A stretch of DNA of 50,827 nucleotides from contig JANWVM010000014.1 in assembly GCA_025056115.1 (NCBI GenBank), positions 1 to 50,827 on the forward strand. Direction: 5' to 3'. A program made the position numbers and the translations under genes. This DNA is from Gloeomargarita sp. SKYG116. Its GTDB lineage: Bacteria; Cyanobacteriota; Cyanobacteriia; Gloeomargaritales; Gloeomargaritaceae. Positions 43,029 to 50,606 of the stretch are shown one piece after another. Under the pieces are notes generated by a model. The model saw only the letters and a list, made by a program, of their open reading frames with translations. It was not told where the DNA came from and ran no database searches. Each line of letters starts with the position of its first letter. The first letter of the stretch is position 1.

Positions 43029-44573
43029 TCAACTTTCCCCCTGGGGCAGCATGAACGGGGGAATCTCTAGCGTGGGGTCCAGCAGCAATGCCCGGCGAAT
43101 ATCCCCGATGGCTCCCCGTTTATCCCGCAGTTGGTAACGCAGCAAGCCGCGCCGGTAATAGGCCAGGGCAAAGTTGGGGTTCAAGCGCAACGCCTGGTTG
43201 TAGTCAGCAATGGCTCCCCGCCAGTCCCCTTTTTCCGCCTTGGTATTGCCCACCGCGTAGAAATCCGCCGCATCGTGCCGCGTGGGGTTCAATGCTGTGC
43301 CGTGGATGTAGGCAAAATTGGGGTTCAGTCGCAGCGCCTGGTTATAGTCCTGCACCGCTTCCCCATACTGGCCCATCCGTCGCCAGGCAATACTACGGTT
43401 GTAGTAGGCATCAACTAAATCCGGTTGCAACTCAATCGCCCGTGTGTAGTCGGCAATCGCGCCTTCCCGGTCGCCCAGTCGGTAGCGCGTCAATCCCCGC
43501 TGGTAGTAGATGTCAGCCCGCTGGGGCAAAAGTTGCAACGCCCGCTGATAATCCTCCAACGCGCCCCGGTTATCGCCCTGTTCAAACCGCAGCCACCCCC
43601 GCCGGAAATACGCCTCGCCGCACTGGGGGTCCATCCGCAGCGCTTGGTTGAGTTGGGTTAATGCCTCCTGGTGCCTGCCTTCGCGAATGCACGCCAGCGC
43701 CTTTTGCACATACTGGGCCGCGACGGTCGCCACCTGGGGACGCGGAGGAACGGTGGGTCGGGGTTCAGGTTGCACCCGGTTGAAGTCCTCCATTGCTCCC
43801 CGCCGGTCGCCCACCATAGCGCGCGCTTCCCCCCGGTGGTAATACACCTGCGTCAAACGGGGGTCCAGCAGCAACGCCCGGTCGTAGTCGGCAATCGCTC
43901 CCGGCAAATCCCCTACAGCTTGGCGCGCCAACCCTCGCTGGAAGTACGCCTCAGCGAAATCCGGTTTCACCCGCAAGCACTGGTTATAGGCTTCAATGGC
44001 CGCTGTCCAGTTGTTTAGCTCTGCCTGGGCCAACCCCTGCTGGTAGAACCGCTGGGCGCTATTGTGGGCCACCGCTTGCGCTGTCCCGTGGATGTGCGTG
44101 TAATTGGGGTTCAGTTTGAGCGCCCAAGTATGGTCGGCCACTGCGCCCTGGTAATCCCCTTCCCGGCGTCGCGCGATACTGCGGTTGTAATAGGCATCAG
44201 CAAAATTCGGTTGCAGTTCAATCGCCCGCGTGTAGTCCGCAATCGCTCCCCGGCGGTCCCCCGAGCGATAACGGCTCAAACCGCGGTGGTAATAGATGAT
44301 GGCTCCGTGGGGTTCGTACTGAAGTGCCTGGTTAAAATCAGCAATCGCCCCCTGGTAGTCATGGGTGTGAAACCGCACCAAACCCCGCTGGTAGTAGGCG
44401 GCGCTGTAGGCCGGTTGACACTGTAACGCCTGGTTGAAAAATCGAATCGCTCCTGAGTAATCCCCCGCCTCCACCTTTTTTAATCCCGCGTGGTAGAAGC
44501 TTTCCGCCTGTAATCGGAGCGTTTCTGATGCCCGTTGTTGGGATGGAGCAACTTGGGGATCAATATCGGGCAT
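43029..44573 (-). CDS. Tetratricopeptide-repeat protein
   Basis: 514 residues made of about a dozen TPR units, for example YHAGLKKVEAGDYSGAIRFFNQALQ, AAYYQRGLVRFHTHDYQGAI, AIIYYHRGLSRYRSGDRRGAI and so on to the end. Two internal halves are near copies of each other (the unit ending NPNYTHIHGTAQ and the unit ending NPNFAYIHGTAL), so it has grown by duplication. No signal peptide or other domain. It serves as a protein-binding scaffold; partners are unknown. It ends 1.7 kb before the defence-like operon and is next to the insertion element. Confidence 0.9.
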   Translation of the reverse strand: MPDIDPQVAPSQQRASETLRLQAESFYHAGLKKVEAGDYSGAIRFFNQALQCQPAYSAAYYQRGLVRFHTHDYQGAIADFNQALQYEPHGAIIYYHRGLSRYRSGDRRGAIADYTRAIELQPNFADAYYNRSIARRREGDYQGAVADHTWALKLNPNYTHIHGTAQAVAHNSAQRFYQQGLAQAELNNWTAAIEAYNQCLRVKPDFAEAYFQRGLARQAVGDLPGAIADYDRALLLDPRLTQVYYHRGEARAMVGDRRGAMEDFNRVQPEPRPTVPPRPQVATVAAQYVQKALACIREGRHQEALTQLNQALRMDPQCGEAYFRRGWLRFEQGDNRGALEDYQRALQLLPQRADIYYQRGLTRYRLGDREGAIADYTRAIELQPDLVDAYYNRSIAWRRMGQYGEAVQDYNQALRLNPNFAYIHGTALNPTRHDAADFYAVGNTKAEKGDWRGAIADYNQALRLNPNFALAYYRRGLLRYQLRDKRGAIGDIRRALLLDPTLEIPPFMLPQGES

Positions 44574-44687
44574 GAATGGATGACCTCAGTGGGAGCCTAA
44601 CTCCATCCTTATAGCTAGGTACAAGGTTTGCGAGTGATAGCAATCACAGTGAGACCCTTTTTTGGCAAAATTGGGTGTTTTTGCGTA

Positions 44688-45595
44688 CAGCTAAGCTTTT
44701 TAAGGTTGTCATATAATGAACGTGTTGCTAGGGAGTGAGAAAATGCCTAGACCGTATAACTATGATTTGCGCAAGAAGGCGGTAGAAGCCATCTTGAATG
44801 GTGCCACTATCATGGAAGTCAGTCAGTTCCTAAACGTCAGCTATCGAACGGTACAACGCTGGCTCAGACAATGGTCAGAAACAGGAGATGTCCACCCCAA
44901 GGAAGGCTATCAAAAAGGCCATAGTCATAAGCTGAAAGACCTAGAAGAATTCCAGCAGTTTGTGGACGCAAATCCTGGCTTGACTCAGCGGGAGATGGCC
45001 GCTCACTTTAGCGTGAGCCGTGCCACTATCTGGAAGGCCCTGCAAAAGATAGGATATACCCACAAAAAAAAACGTATTTCTATCAAGAGCGAGACCCCAG
45101 AGAGCGACAGGCTTACTGTGAGTTAATCGAGCAGATACCACTAGATCAGGTGCTCTATATAGACCAATCTGGCGTAGATTACCGGGATATTGATGAATAT
45201 GGTTGGGCGCCGAAAGGAGAGAGAGTTTAATCGTGGAGAACGAATTAGCATTATGGCGGCTTACCAATCAGGGCGTGTGATTGAACCATTTACTTGGATA
45301 GGCTATTATCCGGTGGTTAAGTGAGAGACTTTTACCAGCGATTGGTTCTGGGAAAGTTTTGGTACTGGATAATGCAAGTTTTCACCGGTCTGCAGCGGTC
45401 AGAAAGGTGGTGGAAGCGGCTGGATGTCGCTTGGTTTATTTACCAAGATATTCACCTGATTTGAATCCGATTGAGCAAGTATGGTCTTGGCTAAAACGGT
45501 GGGTTAACCATGCGTGGAGTTTAACCAAACGGAACCTACGTTCTCTCGTGGATGAAGCTATCCGTTTTATATGTCAACCTTTGTCAGCTTAGCTA
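44688..45595 (+). mobile_element. IS630-family insertion sequence with both inverted repeats
   Basis: About 908 bp between TA dinucleotides at 44686-44687 and 45596-45597, the TA duplication being the hallmark of IS630/Tc1/mariner elements. The left end begins CAGCTAAGC-TTTTT-AAGGTTG-T-CATATAA and the reverse complement of the right end begins TAGCTAAGC-TGACA-AAGGTTG-A-CATATAA, so about 22 of the first 29 positions agree. Inside is a transposase gene broken by frameshifts. A further solo end-like sequence TATAGCTAGGTACAAGG lies at 44610, suggesting an older insertion next to it. Confidence 0.88.
44743..45592 (+). pseudogene. IS630 transposase, frameshifted
   Basis: The first open frame from ATG 44743 encodes a helix-turn-helix N-terminus (MPRPYNYDLRKKAVEAILNG; VSYRTVQRWLRQWSETG; LTQREMAAHFSVSRATIWKALQKIGYTHKKK). 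The protein then continues one base back after a run of nine A (45064-45072) as ERQAYCELIEQIPLDQVLYIDQSGVDY, breaks again near 45228 at GERV, resumes as GERISIMAAYQSGRVIEPFTWIG, loses a few codons with another frame change near 45310, and ends LVLDNASFHRSAAV...YSPDLNPIEQVW. Aspartates and the glutamate of the DDE triad (YIDQSG, VLDNASFH, NPIEQVW) can all be seen. The A9 step could be a programmed -1 site, but the later breaks make the copy inactive. Confidence 0.85.
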
Positions 45596-45689
45596 TAGAA
45601 AATGGTTTGGTTTATGTCTATATCAGCAAAATTACTGAACTTGTATTGCCAACCGACGAAAACTTTGTGTATTGTCAGCACAACTGACC

Positions 45690-45792
45690 TATAGCAGAAA
45701 ACATTTAGGTTGTTGCCCTTGGGAAGCCATCAACATAGAAACATCTAGGGTTCCGGTTGCTGCCTGTGTCAAGCATTCTGTGCTTAGCTATA
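45690..45792 (-). repeat. Intact copy of the 103-bp repeat A (MITE-like)
   Basis: On the reverse strand it begins TATAGCTAAGCACAGAATG and its other end reads TATAGCAGAAAACATTTAGG inward on the plus strand. Its terminal TA at 45791-45792 is shared with the next element, as expected when one TA-targeting element inserts at the edge of another. It is too short to code for a transposase, and one end shares TATAGCTAAGC with the IS630 element 95 bp away. Confidence 0.82.
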
Positions 45793-45893
45793 TAGCCAAG
45801 CCATCTATGGTTGTCAGCCCTTGAGTCCCGGAGCACGGCCCCGCCTTTGGGTTTTCTCTCCTCTTTCTGACAAACTAAAGCAGCTTAGCTATA
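45791..45893 (-). repeat. Intact copy of the 103-bp repeat B (MITE-like)
   Basis: Plus strand begins TATAGCCAAGCC and ends GGCTTAGC-type sequence AGCAGCTTAGCTATA, giving partly matching terminal inverted repeats with TATA ends. The middle is G+C rich and can fold (CCCGG and GGCCCCG blocks). It abuts repeat A on the left, sharing TA, and the IS630 remnant on the right after a single G, so that AGCTTAGCTATA-G-TATAGCTAAGCT forms a 25-bp palindrome at 45882-45906. Confidence 0.82.
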
Positions 45894-45894
45894 G

Positions 45895-46105
45895 TATAGC
45901 TAAGCTTGTTATATCTAAAATCATAAAGCTTGACATAATTTACAGATGGTTTTATTGACCAGGGATTGCAGATTTTCGATTGGACTCACCTGTAACTTAC
46001 GCACCTTTTGCTTAATCCGATACCACACATGTTCAATCGAATTCAAATCTGGTGAATATCTAGTATTAGCTCACACCCAGCCGTTTCCACCACTTGCTTT
46101 AGCAC
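45895..46105 (-). pseudogene. Second IS630 transposase remnant, C-terminal part
   Basis: Starts with the terminal sequence TATAGCTAAGCTTG. Read on the reverse strand it encodes KQVVETAGCELI, then, after a small deletion with frame change, YSPDLNSIEHVWYRIKQKV and a tail ending ICKLCQAL with stop at 45921-45923. This matches the C-terminal end of the first transposase (KVVEAAGCRLVYLPRYSPDLNPIEQVW) but differs enough to be a separate relative. Only the last quarter of the gene and one end remain. Confidence 0.8.
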
Positions 46106-46107
46106 AC

Positions 46108-46209
46108 TATAGCTAAGCACACAATGTTTGGCATGAGCAATAAATGGGAACCTTAACGCTTTGGCCTTGCCTGCTTTCAAGTACGCCAACTTAAATGTTT
46201 TCTTCTATA
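46108..46209 (+). repeat. Copy of the 103-bp repeat A (MITE-like)
   Basis: Begins TATAGCTAAGCACACAATG and ends AAATGTTTTCTTCTATA, matching both ends of the reverse-strand copy at 45690-45792 and the start of the copy at 24151. Length 102 bp. It lies directly beyond the transposase remnant and truncates a piece of repeat B on its right. Confidence 0.8.
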
Positions 46210-46260
46210 TCCCCTGGGTCACAGGCTGCAGCCGCGTCCTTAGTTTTGCCATTCTCTCTC
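46210..46260 (+). repeat. Truncated piece of repeat B
   Basis: CCCCTGGGTCACAGGCTGCAGCCGCG followed by TTAGTTTTGCC and CTCTCTC follows the plus-strand order of repeat B (CTTGAGTCCCGGAGCACGGCCCCG, TTTGGGTTTTCTCTCC). It appears to have been cut on the left by repeat A. The remaining 59 bp to the NurA-like gene contain nothing I can name. Confidence 0.4.
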
Positions 46261-46319
46261 TATACTGAAGTGTCAATCTTTTGTGGGTGAGGATGGCAAT
46301 GGAAGCAAGCAGATGTCGA

Positions 46320-47654
46320 TTACTCTCGCGATTTGAAAGCGAAAAGTTCCAAGACCTTAACCGAAGGATATGTTGACAGTGATGCTATAGAGTTTGCCAG
46401 CTCTATCGGAATTAACGCATTTTCGTGCCTGCTACTGAGCATTGCTGGAAGTGTAGCTAGTATTCTATCAAAATTGATAATCTTAGACGAATCGGGACTT
46501 TGAATAAACTTATCCATTGGAATGCAAATAGGTATGCTCAATACCAGGCGACACCGTTCATTCATCACTATAAAGACTTTTGCTCCGTAGTTCGTGTCTT
46601 TTCCATAGGGGGCACCACTGGGAGGTCGGCTCTGAATCTGTTCACAAATATAAACGTGGTCAGGGATAAAAAAGTGATTGGATGGCGCGTTCTTACCTAG
46701 CAATAAATTTAAGTGATCAACAAAGATACCTGTTTTTTCTTGGCCCACTATACTGATAGGATATCCTTGCAAATAAGCATGCAACAAGAAATTTCTAATA
46801 GGGTTAACCAATTTTGAATATTGAGCGCGAATTTGCAATGGGCCATCTTTCAGAAACAAACAGCGTTTGAGCGTTTCACGCTTATTAGATTCCCAGAAAT
46901 GGCGGATGCCCGTGAACAACAGCAACGTCTCATGAATATTCATGTACGCCGTAGCGACACTTTCTGATGCGGCATTTTCACTCATTTCTAAATGAAAGCC
47001 GAGCATGTCGGTAATAAAAACTTTCTTACCACAAGTTTGACACACTCCTTCTTCTTGATCAAAACTTAGGGTCGCATTATGTGCTTCACCGTCAATTTCA
47101 CTATGCGGACATTGAAAATCAGGCAATGAAGAGCGGGGAGATTTAGACCACTTTTCATAGGCAAGCCATTTGAGAGTCTCCATTACTTCTCCTTGAAGAG
47201 AATCATCCTTGAGCGACTCAAAAATAATTTGGCGAGTTGCATCGTAAACGCTAAGTCCTCTCAAATAAACATGCCTTAGCGGGAAAGCTGTTGCATGATA
47301 GACAGCCGCTTTAGCCATCAGGTCTCGTAACGCCAAAGGATGTGGTTCGTCTTTGTCGATTCGATTTAGAGCGGCTTGGTCTACCATCATCAGGGCTGTC
47401 TTGATAAACGCAATCTTTTTGTACGGAGGACGTTCATCTGTTACAGGTTGCCATGAGCCGTCAACAGCAAAGACTACGTCAAGAGGCTCAGTGCAGGGAG
47501 GAAAGGATTCCCACGCAACATCCAACATATCCACCGCTTCAGGCTGCTCAAAGTTTTCAACAATTTGTTGAACCAATGGACTCCTGAGCACTTCTAAATG
47601 CCCCAGCTTACTAGCGCGCTCACCTGGCAGATTTCTTCCTGCTTGATATGGCAT
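46320..47654 (-). CDS. NurA-like nuclease with zinc-ribbon-like insertion
   Basis: 444 residues. The NurA fold (RNase H-like 5'-3' nuclease) is indicated by VVFAVDGSWQPV at 60-71 with the metal aspartate D65, by CLFLKDGPLQIRAQ with D270 in the second strand, and by the later strand IVGQEKTGIFVDHL. Between them sits a likely zinc site, C182 and H184 (CPH) with C205 and C208 (CQTCGK). NurA normally works with the HerA ATPase to degrade or resect DNA; here herA is directly upstream, nine bases away on the same strand. The sequence is much less G+C rich than the rest of the window (one hand-counted 60-base line, 47041-47100, has 25 G+C). Family assignment rests on motifs and partner; overall similarity to archaeal NurA is low. 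Confidence 0.72.
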   Translation of the reverse strand: MPYQAGRNLPGERASKLGHLEVLRSPLVQQIVENFEQPEAVDMLDVAWESFPPCTEPLDVVFAVDGSWQPVTDERPPYKKIAFIKTALMMVDQAALNRIDKDEPHPLALRDLMAKAAVYHATAFPLRHVYLRGLSVYDATRQIIFESLKDDSLQGEVMETLKWLAYEKWSKSPRSSLPDFQCPHSEIDGEAHNATLSFDQEEGVCQTCGKKVFITDMLGFHLEMSENAASESVATAYMNIHETLLLFTGIRHFWESNKRETLKRCLFLKDGPLQIRAQYSKLVNPIRNFLLHAYLQGYPISIVGQEKTGIFVDHLNLLLGKNAPSNHFFIPDHVYICEQIQSRPPSGAPYGKDTNYGAKVFIVMNERCRLVLSIPICIPMDKFIQSPDSSKIINFDRILATLPAMLSSRHENALIPIELANSIASLSTYPSVKVLELFAFKSRE

Positions 47655-47663
47655 AGTATTGAC

Positions 47664-49670
47664 TCACAATAGTGATGGTTGACTGGTATTTGGATCAAAT
47701 TTCAGCGCTTGTATCGGTACAACAAATCTGTGCGAACGGGTCAGCATTCGAATGTAGCCTGGCGTTTTCGCGCGCAATATGTCGTCCTTCATACTTTTAT
47801 AGGCTATGTTCATTTTTGCAAGTACATTTACTTCATCTTCCGATGACATATGAGCAACGAAGAAATTCTCAGTTTGAGCTAAAAGATCGCCACTTATTGT
47901 GGATGGGGATTGTGTTGAGTAAACAATACCTATGTGGTACTTTGCACCTTCCTTTGCAAAGCGACTATAGATGTCCTTTGGCTCCTTTTGACGAGGGAAA
48001 AGATTGTGAGCTTCTTCAAAATATAACTGGATGTATTTATTTCCCAGGTTGTTATTACTGAACTTATCAACTTGATGGCTGAAAACGGCTTTGGACAACA
48101 AATCAGAGAAGTATTCCAAAAGTACAGGATGAGCATTACCTAGGTCAAGTATTACAGTCTTGCCATCATCTAGGAACTGCAGAATCTCTTTTATGAAATC
48201 ACTTGCTTGAGGATCATGATAAATACGGTATGGTTGAATTATGGCTGGTCCACTTCGACCAGGAGATGGCTCAAGAAATTCCAGTAGCGCGATGTCATCT
48301 GGATCAAAAAGCGCATTGCCACTCTGGCTGGTCAAGCTTGAATGACTCGGATCGTTCCGTCGAAACCTGGCTATAGTCTCCATCTCACGCATAAGCTCGT
48401 CTAATGTGCAAGGCGGCTGTGGCACAGTCTGAACTCCAGCAGCAGAATATGCTGCACTTCGCAACCCTTGGCTGAAGCCAGGATTAAATCCACTTGCAGG
48501 TTGACCTGATGGGATTATGGATCTTAGCTTTCCTTCATCTGCTTGGAAGCCAGCCTTCTTTAGTACGGCCCAAAACATTTGTATTTTGCGATATGCTCGT
48601 GTTTTATCACCTATGTCATTTATTCTTCTGATTTCTTCCAGCGGATAGAACTCAACGCTCATAAAACTTTGGATGTAATTCGATGTGGCGCGATTGTCTT
48701 GCGTAATTAGACTTGTCAAAATTTTCTGTGCCGTATCGGGCTGTTCATAAAAATTCAGTTTCAGTGGTCGAGAAGGAGTTGTAGCTTTAGGGGTCAACGC
48801 ATAAACAACACAACGATTAGAGTTGGCGCTTCTTAGAGATTTGCTGCCGTCCTGCGGATTATCGTTTGCATATTCACCGTTGATGTCAAAAATTAACTGT
48901 CCCACATTACTGTCCTGCGCAGTAGCATCAAGAATACTCTGGGCAATAAGTTTCACAACGTTGGATTTACCTAGACGAGTTTTCCCAAACATCGCCGTTC
49001 GGGACCCAAGAAAATCCCTTGGAGATACGTAAACTGGGACTTGCAAAAGTGGTTTATCTGGTAAGGGTAGCCGACATTCTGTCAGTCGCAAAGTGCCTAT
49101 CTTGAATCTCTTATCTTGCGAGACAAGCGAATTTATCACTAAATCCAAGATAGCATCATCAGGCGCATAGACGCGATACTTGTGGGCACTGACAAAATTG
49201 TTCATGTCCGCTGAGAATTCCACTGCATCTTGTTTTTCGGGATGGGGGTAGAACATCCCAAGCACCTCGGTATTTAATGCTCCCCACTGTAGTTCAGACT
49301 GGGTGAAAATGTCGAGCTCGGGCATTGATTTTTTTTGCAACTCAAAGTAAGTCTGTTGAGTCTCTTTACTTAACGGTGTAGGAGCCGCATCTAAAACGCG
49401 CAGCAGTGTGAAGTGGGGAGTAACTATTCTTTCCTGTCTTGCAGGCGTCATTATTAGTAGTGAATTGCGCGGTATACCACCAACAGCAACTTTGTAGGGA
49501 TCGGAAGTGATTATTGTGACAGTTTCATAGTTTATATCAAGAACATAACCTACAAATCGCATCTCATCATATTTCTTAGCAGTCTCGTTCGCCTGTTCTC
49601 TGTCGAGAAAGTCTTTGAGAACTCGTAAAGGATGATGCTGTTGGGCTGCGCTCTCAAAAAAGTCTTTCAT
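47664..49670 (-). CDS. HerA-like hexameric DNA-translocating ATPase
   Basis: 668 residues. An N-terminal HAS-barrel-like region (about 36-110: FVGYVLDINYETVTIITSDPYKVAVG) precedes the HerA-FtsK core: Walker A GKTRLGKS at 229-236, LIFDINGEY at 259-267 (a HerA mark), Walker B IQLYFEEAHNLF at 547-558 with E552-E553, sensor-like STQSP at 585-589 and the FFVAHMSSEDEVNVL stretch that carries inter-subunit contacts. HerA rings pump double-stranded DNA into the nuclease NurA, or act with other effectors in phage defence. It overlaps the methyltransferase gene (ATGA, 49667-49670) and is followed after nine bases by the NurA-like gene. Confidence 0.9.
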   Translation of the reverse strand: MKDFFESAAQQHHPLRVLKDFLDREQANETAKKYDEMRFVGYVLDINYETVTIITSDPYKVAVGGIPRNSLLIMTPARQERIVTPHFTLLRVLDAAPTPLSKETQQTYFELQKKSMPELDIFTQSELQWGALNTEVLGMFYPHPEKQDAVEFSADMNNFVSAHKYRVYAPDDAILDLVINSLVSQDKRFKIGTLRLTECRLPLPDKPLLQVPVYVSPRDFLGSRTAMFGKTRLGKSNVVKLIAQSILDATAQDSNVGQLIFDINGEYANDNPQDGSKSLRSANSNRCVVYALTPKATTPSRPLKLNFYEQPDTAQKILTSLITQDNRATSNYIQSFMSVEFYPLEEIRRINDIGDKTRAYRKIQMFWAVLKKAGFQADEGKLRSIIPSGQPASGFNPGFSQGLRSAAYSAAGVQTVPQPPCTLDELMREMETIARFRRNDPSHSSLTSQSGNALFDPDDIALLEFLEPSPGRSGPAIIQPYRIYHDPQASDFIKEILQFLDDGKTVILDLGNAHPVLLEYFSDLLSKAVFSHQVDKFSNNNLGNKYIQLYFEEAHNLFPRQKEPKDIYSRFAKEGAKYHIGIVYSTQSPSTISGDLLAQTENFFVAHMSSEDEVNVLAKMNIAYKSMKDDILRAKTPGYIRMLTRSHRFVVPIQALKFDPNTSQPSLL

Positions 49671-50500
49671 AATCTTTCTCCACTCTTGATTCGGTAGGAT
49701 GTGATAAGTACTTCTCCAGAATCAGACGTGAGTGTGCCAGGCATCTTACCTGTTCCACGAGGGATTCTCAACGCATAGTTTCCCTTAAGCAAACATAAGA
49801 TATCTCTATGGGACGAAATGGTCATTGCCCACTTCACACCCCGTAGTTTTGCACATTGAAGAGAATTTGTAAGTCGTTCATAATCGCTGTATTTGAACTG
49901 TTGCCAAACGTAATGGTTGTTTATGTATTCTTTATAGCCTGGGCGATAAGGTGGGTCAAGGAAGATGAAGTCCCCTCTTTGCGTTTGATCAATAATAGGC
50001 TGAAAGTCTTCACATTTTAAAGATACCCTACGTAGTGCAGTTGCACAAAAAATGAGATCTTTTTCTGTGATTACCCATCGTCGTGCCTGTCCTCCATACC
50101 CTACGTTGAAACGTCCATCGCGATTGTGACGCCACATCCCTTTGAAGCATGTGCGATTAAGATACAAGGTTCTAGCAGCTCGCTCAATAAGTGTCTTGGG
50201 TTTATACTCATCTCGGATGTAATGATAATCAGATTTCGTATTCCCAAATTCGCAATAAACAGCCCAAACCTTTCGTGGAGCATACCTTATAGCTCGATAT
50301 AAGTCTATTAACTCTGGGTTCACATCCGAAAGTAGCGCCCTTATCGGTTGCAGATAGAAAAAAGTAGCTCCGCCTCCAACAAAAGGCTCTACATACATCC
50401 CATCAATCTCACTGGGGTCAGGAAGATAATCCTGTAGAAAAGTTAGTAAGCGACGCTTGCCACCAGGGTAACGCACCAGAAGTTTTTGGTTCACCGACAT
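49667..50500 (-). CDS. DNA adenine methyltransferase, D12 (Dam) class
   Basis: 277 residues from the ATG at 50500 (MSVNQKLLVRYPGGKRRLL); an in-frame ATG at 50560 would add 20 residues that look spurious. SAM-binding motif EPFVGGGATFF at 38-48 and catalytic DPPY at 182-185, plus NRTCFKGMWRHNRDGRFNVGYG, the target-recognition-side block typical of Dam/DpnM enzymes. It transfers methyl to N6 of adenine; the recognition site is not predictable here, though many relatives act on GATC. First gene of the operon with HerA and NurA, with 163 bp to the end of psaB upstream. Confidence 0.92.
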   Translation of the reverse strand: MSVNQKLLVRYPGGKRRLLTFLQDYLPDPSEIDGMYVEPFVGGGATFFYLQPIRALLSDVNPELIDLYRAIRYAPRKVWAVYCEFGNTKSDYHYIRDEYKPKTLIERAARTLYLNRTCFKGMWRHNRDGRFNVGYGGQARRWVITEKDLIFCATALRRVSLKCEDFQPIIDQTQRGDFIFLDPPYRPGYKEYINNHYVWQQFKYSDYERLTNSLQCAKLRGVKWAMTISSHRDILCLLKGNYALRIPRGTGKMPGTLTSDSGEVLITSYRIKSGERL

Positions 50501-50606
50501 CTCTAATTCCGTCAGTGGAATTTGCTGCAACCCAACGGTACCACTAATGTAGCACAGCACTCTTGCCAGTTGTACCTAAACCATGTCCAGCAGGTAATTT
50601 TTAAGA

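Follow-up and report, generated by a model that had tools for sequence, protein, structure and literature searches.

Two families of short repeats, A and B, and their subfamilies A2, B2, B3, and C are very probably IS630/Tc1-mariner MITEs that would be moved in trans by resident insertion sequences, ISalpha or ISbeta, and that form chains by reusing the TA of earlier copies. This reading is based on the sequences of the elements, their ends, and their insertion sites. The elements came to light in a 50,827-nt stretch of DNA (the window), which is contig C55 of a genome comprising 2,365,809 bases in 258 contigs (G000). Below, the genome of the nearest relative is referred to as G001.

A chain of TA-flanked elements in the window

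Between 44500 and 46600, the window contains, in order, ISalpha, A, B, a scrap of an element end, an inverted piece of ISbeta, an inverted A2, and a B fragment. ISalpha, a degenerate IS630-family insertion sequence, lies on the plus strand and has TA on both flanks. The initial annotation located an IS630 element at 44688-45595; the element is there, but it spans 44686-45597 (912 bp with TAs) and has a left end mutated to TACAGC. As also proposed, its right end is identical to the ends of the small elements, here over 12 bases. A (45690-45792) and B (45791-45893), both on the plus strand, occupy the positions originally assigned to them, and they overlap by exactly the TA at 45791-45792. Each consists of 99 bp with a TA on each side. 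A has an ISbeta-like left end and is 98% identical to its consensus, and B has ISalpha-like ends and a palindromic core and is 95% identical to its consensus.

The adjoining region, 45895-46105, had been described as a transposase remnant. It does contain the inverted 3' part of an IS630 transposase gene, but this piece spans 45910-46097 and belongs to a different IS630 subfamily. It is a truncated ISbeta on the minus strand that includes the right end (ISbeta positions 942-748, 83% identity). The bases at 45895-45909 are a separate 15-bp scrap of an element end on the plus strand, TATAGCTAAGCTTGT. Between the ISbeta remnant and the B fragment lies a TA-flanked element at 46108-46209 on the minus strand, initially taken as a second copy of A; it is of the A type but represents the diverged subfamily A2 (83% identity to the A2 consensus and 69% to A) in the opposite orientation. 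The cut piece of B that was thought to follow is present at about 46208-46271 on the plus strand. It starts at a TA, lacks the left third and the right end, and its sequence (TATCCCCTGGGTC...) resembles by eye the inner part of B copies (e.g., C258:8591-8691), a similarity that is below threshold in consensus matching.

Beside the cluster, genes for a 444-aa protein, a HerA-type ATPase (DUF87), and a D12 adenine methyltransferase occupy 46320-50560, all on the minus strand. The 444-aa protein has no Pfam or PADLOC match. The region is possibly a HerA-nuclease defence or modification locus.

A and B are multicopy families with IS630-type ends

Searches of the 2.37-Mb genome (E≤1e-3) for other copies returned 16 matches for A and 29 for B; neither is thus a chance repeat. 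Including the TAs, 31 of 40 full-length MITEs here and 48 of 51 in G001 measure 103 or 104 bp. The unit of approximately 103 bp described initially is correct when both TAs are included, while the mobile part, TAGC...GCTA, is 99 bp and contains no transposase gene.

Comparison of the flanks of the copies confirmed that the ends begin with TATAGC and mostly read TATAGCTAAGC. All ends in these flanks fit a single ungapped 26-bp pattern, TATAGCTAAGC-N7-GNTTGTCA, which is common to A, B, C, ISalpha, and ISbeta. A profile was built from 44 ends and searched genome by genome. The genome has at least 135 matches to this profile; among the matches listed, facing ends are mostly 102-104 bp apart, and 850-942 bp apart for the IS copies. 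The B ends match those of ISalpha at 19-22 of 26 positions and those of ISbeta at 13-18 of 26. The left ends of A, A2, and C match the ISbeta left end at 20-22 of 26 positions, and these elements combine one ISbeta-like end with one mixed end. Because the A right end fits ISalpha and ISbeta alike, the pairing of A with ISbeta is not clean. A, A2, and C appear by eye to be subfamilies of a single old element, B being a second. We note that contigs C206, C210, C226, and C232 have an IS630 end within 50-80 bases of the contig start. Fragmentation of the assembly is therefore probably due in part to these repeats, making the copy numbers underestimates.

Insertion duplicates a TA

TA is present on both sides of 37 of 44 full-length elements here and of 50 of 55 in G001, counts that are biased upward because the consensus used includes the TAs. 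Three interrupted elements define the insertion more precisely: B splits a copy of A at C214:16717-16819, ISbeta is interrupted at positions 333-335 by a B-type copy (C122:35148-35250), and in G001, B splits ISalpha at 123-125. In each case, the TA is repeated. Moreover, the site of the A2 copy at C77:48321-48423, which is bordered by a TA at either end, is found precisely empty in G001, as GTGTC-TA-TTSAAAC. These three independent lines, namely, the TA flanks, the split elements, and the empty site, fix the element boundary, the TA duplication, and the 99-bp mobile part. The short elements duplicate their TA target, as IS630-family MITEs do.

The TA at ISbeta position 333 has been struck by the B-type element (C122:35148) and, in G001, by ISalpha (C53:357), which suggests that it is a hot spot. 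The founding IS630 reportedly favours CTAG as a target (Tenzen and Ohtsubo 1991, listed in PMC2170065). CTAG is over-represented among targets in G001, with 16 of 54 against a background of 7.7% (P 1.8e-6), but not in the genome studied here, with 4 of 42 (P 0.35).

ISalpha and ISbeta are candidate sources of transposase

The window copy of ISalpha has 31-nt imperfect terminal repeats (81%) and matches to HTH_Tnp_IS630/DDE_3 and NF033545; its orfA is intact, and its orfB is broken by frameshifts. Elsewhere in the genome, we identified IS630 copies that have the ends described above and in which neither reading frame is broken, namely, ISalpha at C77:32832-33776 and ISbeta at C181:46762-47703, which keep both ends, orfA, and orfB. 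In both, orfA (HTH) and orfB (DDE) are overlapping open frames with a one-frame offset at an A8 run. The orfB parts of ISalpha and ISbeta score 136 and 129 bits, respectively, against NF033545 (cutoff of 100) and also match DDE_3, and a DD34E was found in ISbeta. Based on the predicted HTH and DDE transposase, we assign both elements to the IS630 family. Because neither has a single intact transposase frame, activity needs frameshifting, and expression would involve a frameshift or slippage. Among the named genomes, transposase relatives are distant only (30-40% identity), and none is titled cyanobacterial; the nearest streptococcal IS630-type transposases have 35-37% protein identity.

Elements share terminal TAs and insert into one another

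The genome contains at least seven shared-TA junctions, of which six were identified by the end model (C33:91-92, C55:45791-45792, C77:21299-21300, C77:33775-33776, C192:5548-5549, and C247:18483-18484) and one is at C33:196-197. Thus, repeated insertion at the TAs of earlier copies, as proposed for the window, is real; the order in which A and B arrived there is not readable from the sequence. A adjoins B twice, in the window and at C77:21201-21402, while other junctions join B-C, C-B, ISalpha-C, and B2-B3. Because partners and orientations differ among the junctions, they represent separate events. Nesting is heavier in G001. At C4:12200-13400 in that genome, B2 and B lie inside ISalpha, followed by A2, more B, and ISbeta pieces, and on its contig C53, B lies within ISalpha within ISbeta. 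At six loci of G001 (L198, L201, L202, L203, L204, and L226), MITEs interrupt IS630 transposase genes, several levels deep; presumably, these are the genes that move the MITEs.

The two A-B junctions could also be explained if A-B were a composite element that was moved or duplicated as one piece, so that the junction was inherited. We rejected this explanation as extremely improbable because the junction orientations differ (A right end to B left end at one site, A left end to B left end at the other), the flanks differ, and the same ends also join other partners. A role for the repeats as RNA structure, terminator, or regulatory site, for which they would be kept as functional sequences rather than as parasites, is in line with the conservation of the B core palindrome across the genus and with the minus strand of B folding modestly better than shuffles (z -2.2). 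We nevertheless regard it as very unlikely, given that A folds no better than shuffles (z -0.5 and +0.2), that an Rfam scan of 44400-46700 gave no match at E≤1, and that the elements insert into other elements and differ in presence or absence from G001.

It is harder to decide whether the chains reflect target choice. Any TA might be used, with genic insertions purged by selection and a few tolerant non-coding patches filling up, an explanation that we consider quite possible, if short of probable. Internal nested insertions are about as numerous here as shared-TA junctions, and for the clustered pneumococcal repeats, Croucher et al. leave target choice versus tolerance open (PMC3049150). However, in a null model in which the allowed fraction was assumed to range from the whole genome down to 10%, random TA use predicts 0.04-1.1 shared-TA junctions compared to the at least seven seen; the highest value, for 10% of the genome and 100 insertions, corresponds to P about 1.5e-4. 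The elements may thus prefer such targets, beyond simply being tolerated outside coding sequence. The base before the TA is A at the shared sites, while C or T is preferred elsewhere. Because the context of the shared TAs is not the preferred one, a simple target preference explains end-to-end insertion incompletely, and part of the pattern may come from non-coding DNA tolerating insertions.

Distribution and the palindromic core of B

Among 39 genomes, own included, full B copies are confined to the genome studied here and G001. The B core gave shorter matches in G002, G004, G005, and G006, with one weak match in G024. Among seven relatives searched, A occurs only in G001. The end profile has matches in G001, G002, G004, and G005 and none in G003, G006, and G007 among the matches listed, the copy counts being lower bounds each obtained from the best 150 candidates per genome. 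G005 has at least dozens of ends with equal scores, and a MITE of approximately 106 bp with the same end pattern is present in the stretches examined in that genome, three in a row at one place. The patchy matches in relatives support an invasion that was genus-level and uneven.

The core of B, GGTCGCAGGGCRYNGCCCC, is a palindrome of approximately 20 bp with a 7-bp stem that lies at 45823-45845 in the window, where the copy varies. Six of the seven genomes of the genus, own included, contain it (30 occurrences in G000, 9 in G001, 39 in G002, 60 in G004, 61 in G005, and 4 in G006), and it is absent from G003; 32 other genomes have a single match, and the reversed control had no occurrence in the genomes counted. 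Some copies of the core belong to IS630-type MITEs and others to repeats whose ends differ, and in G004 it also forms part of tandem arrays with a period of approximately 80-125 bp. Loci carrying it outside the window include C1:632011-632363, 760574-760777, and 2623783-2624170 in G004, L175, L273, and L274 in G002, and L245 and L269-L272 in G005. At L175 of G002, a sister species, at positions 1375-1480 approximately, a second kind of short repeat, with ends TATAGCAGTCCTA...TAGGACTGCTATA, also carries the core. A literature search on the core motif found no relevant paper.

B may be a chimera in which IS630 ends surround a genus-specific palindromic cassette, or else ends already in place may attract the transposase; we offer this only tentatively and consider it rather unlikely. 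If B were such a chimera, one conserved cassette would be carried interchangeably by MITEs that belong to different transposase families, or the cassette would be mobile in itself, like a REP sequence. If the transposase were drawn to ends, old copies would be landing sites for new ones.

Discussion

In our model, two transposase-binding ends of approximately 26 bp flank approximately 50 bp of non-coding DNA to give a MITE of 99 bp in total. A resident ISalpha or ISbeta would supply the transposase in trans, its HTH orfA and DDE orfB being joined by slippage at the A8 run. This transposase would excise the MITE and join it to a TA, which is duplicated, so that each insertion is edged by TATA. 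Later copies have repeatedly inserted at the TA beside a previous copy, or at one within it, to give end-to-end and nested chains such as that at 45690-46271. The suggestion in the initial annotation that both small elements are moved by an IS630 transposase is supported: the conditions named there as refuting it do not hold, since other copies are plentiful and have the ends and the TA duplication. There may, however, be two transposases, as the ends of B group with ISalpha while A, A2, and C have one ISbeta-like and one mixed end. Mobilisation in trans is what these common ends would imply.

The closest described case is RUP of pneumococcus, an IS630-Spn1 derivative of about 107 bp with ends like those of a resident IS630 and target duplication, which often forms clusters and lies inserted within other repeats (PMC3049150, PMC10969869). 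Compared by description, A and B resemble RUP in their size of approximately 100 bp, resident IS630-type ends, target duplication, and clusters; they probably differ in sequence, and they differ in host, in having several subfamilies, ends near two IS630 lineages, and exact TA sharing, and in the GC-rich core of B. The host studied here is putatively a cyanobacterium. Among cyanobacterial elements, again by description, Nezha is a MITE attributed to ISNpu3-like elements for which mobilisation in trans by an IS has been proposed, as cited from Zhou 2008 in PMC3049150, and the ISSoc2-derived MITEs of thermophilic Synechococcus are likewise short non-autonomous derivatives, located in intergenic regions or in genes of unknown function (PMC10969869). 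ISY100 (ISTcSa), an IS630/Tc1-mariner element, duplicates TA and requires only its transposase for excision and insertion; it works with 30 bp of each end, and 24-bp ends are thought sufficient (PMC2170065), which makes 99-bp elements with 26-bp ends plausible substrates. ISalpha and ISbeta resemble ISY100 in the TA target and the HTH and DDE transposase but differ in that their transposase is divided between two frames at the A8 run.

A and B are clearly a further, well-documented instance of an established type of genomic parasite and not a new type. Less ordinary are the insertion of the elements at each other's end TAs and, least ordinary of all, the core of B, which recurs in most genomes of the genus examined, in unrelated repeats and tandem arrays. 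The bacterium and its sister genome carry two IS630 lineages, with both frames open, alongside matching, mutually inserting MITEs of approximately 100 bp. Their sequences reveal the order of nesting, self-targeting, and how MITEs attack the transposase genes of their parents. With a MITE length constant at 99 bp and TAs shared exactly, target choice by an IS630 transposase is directly testable in vitro.
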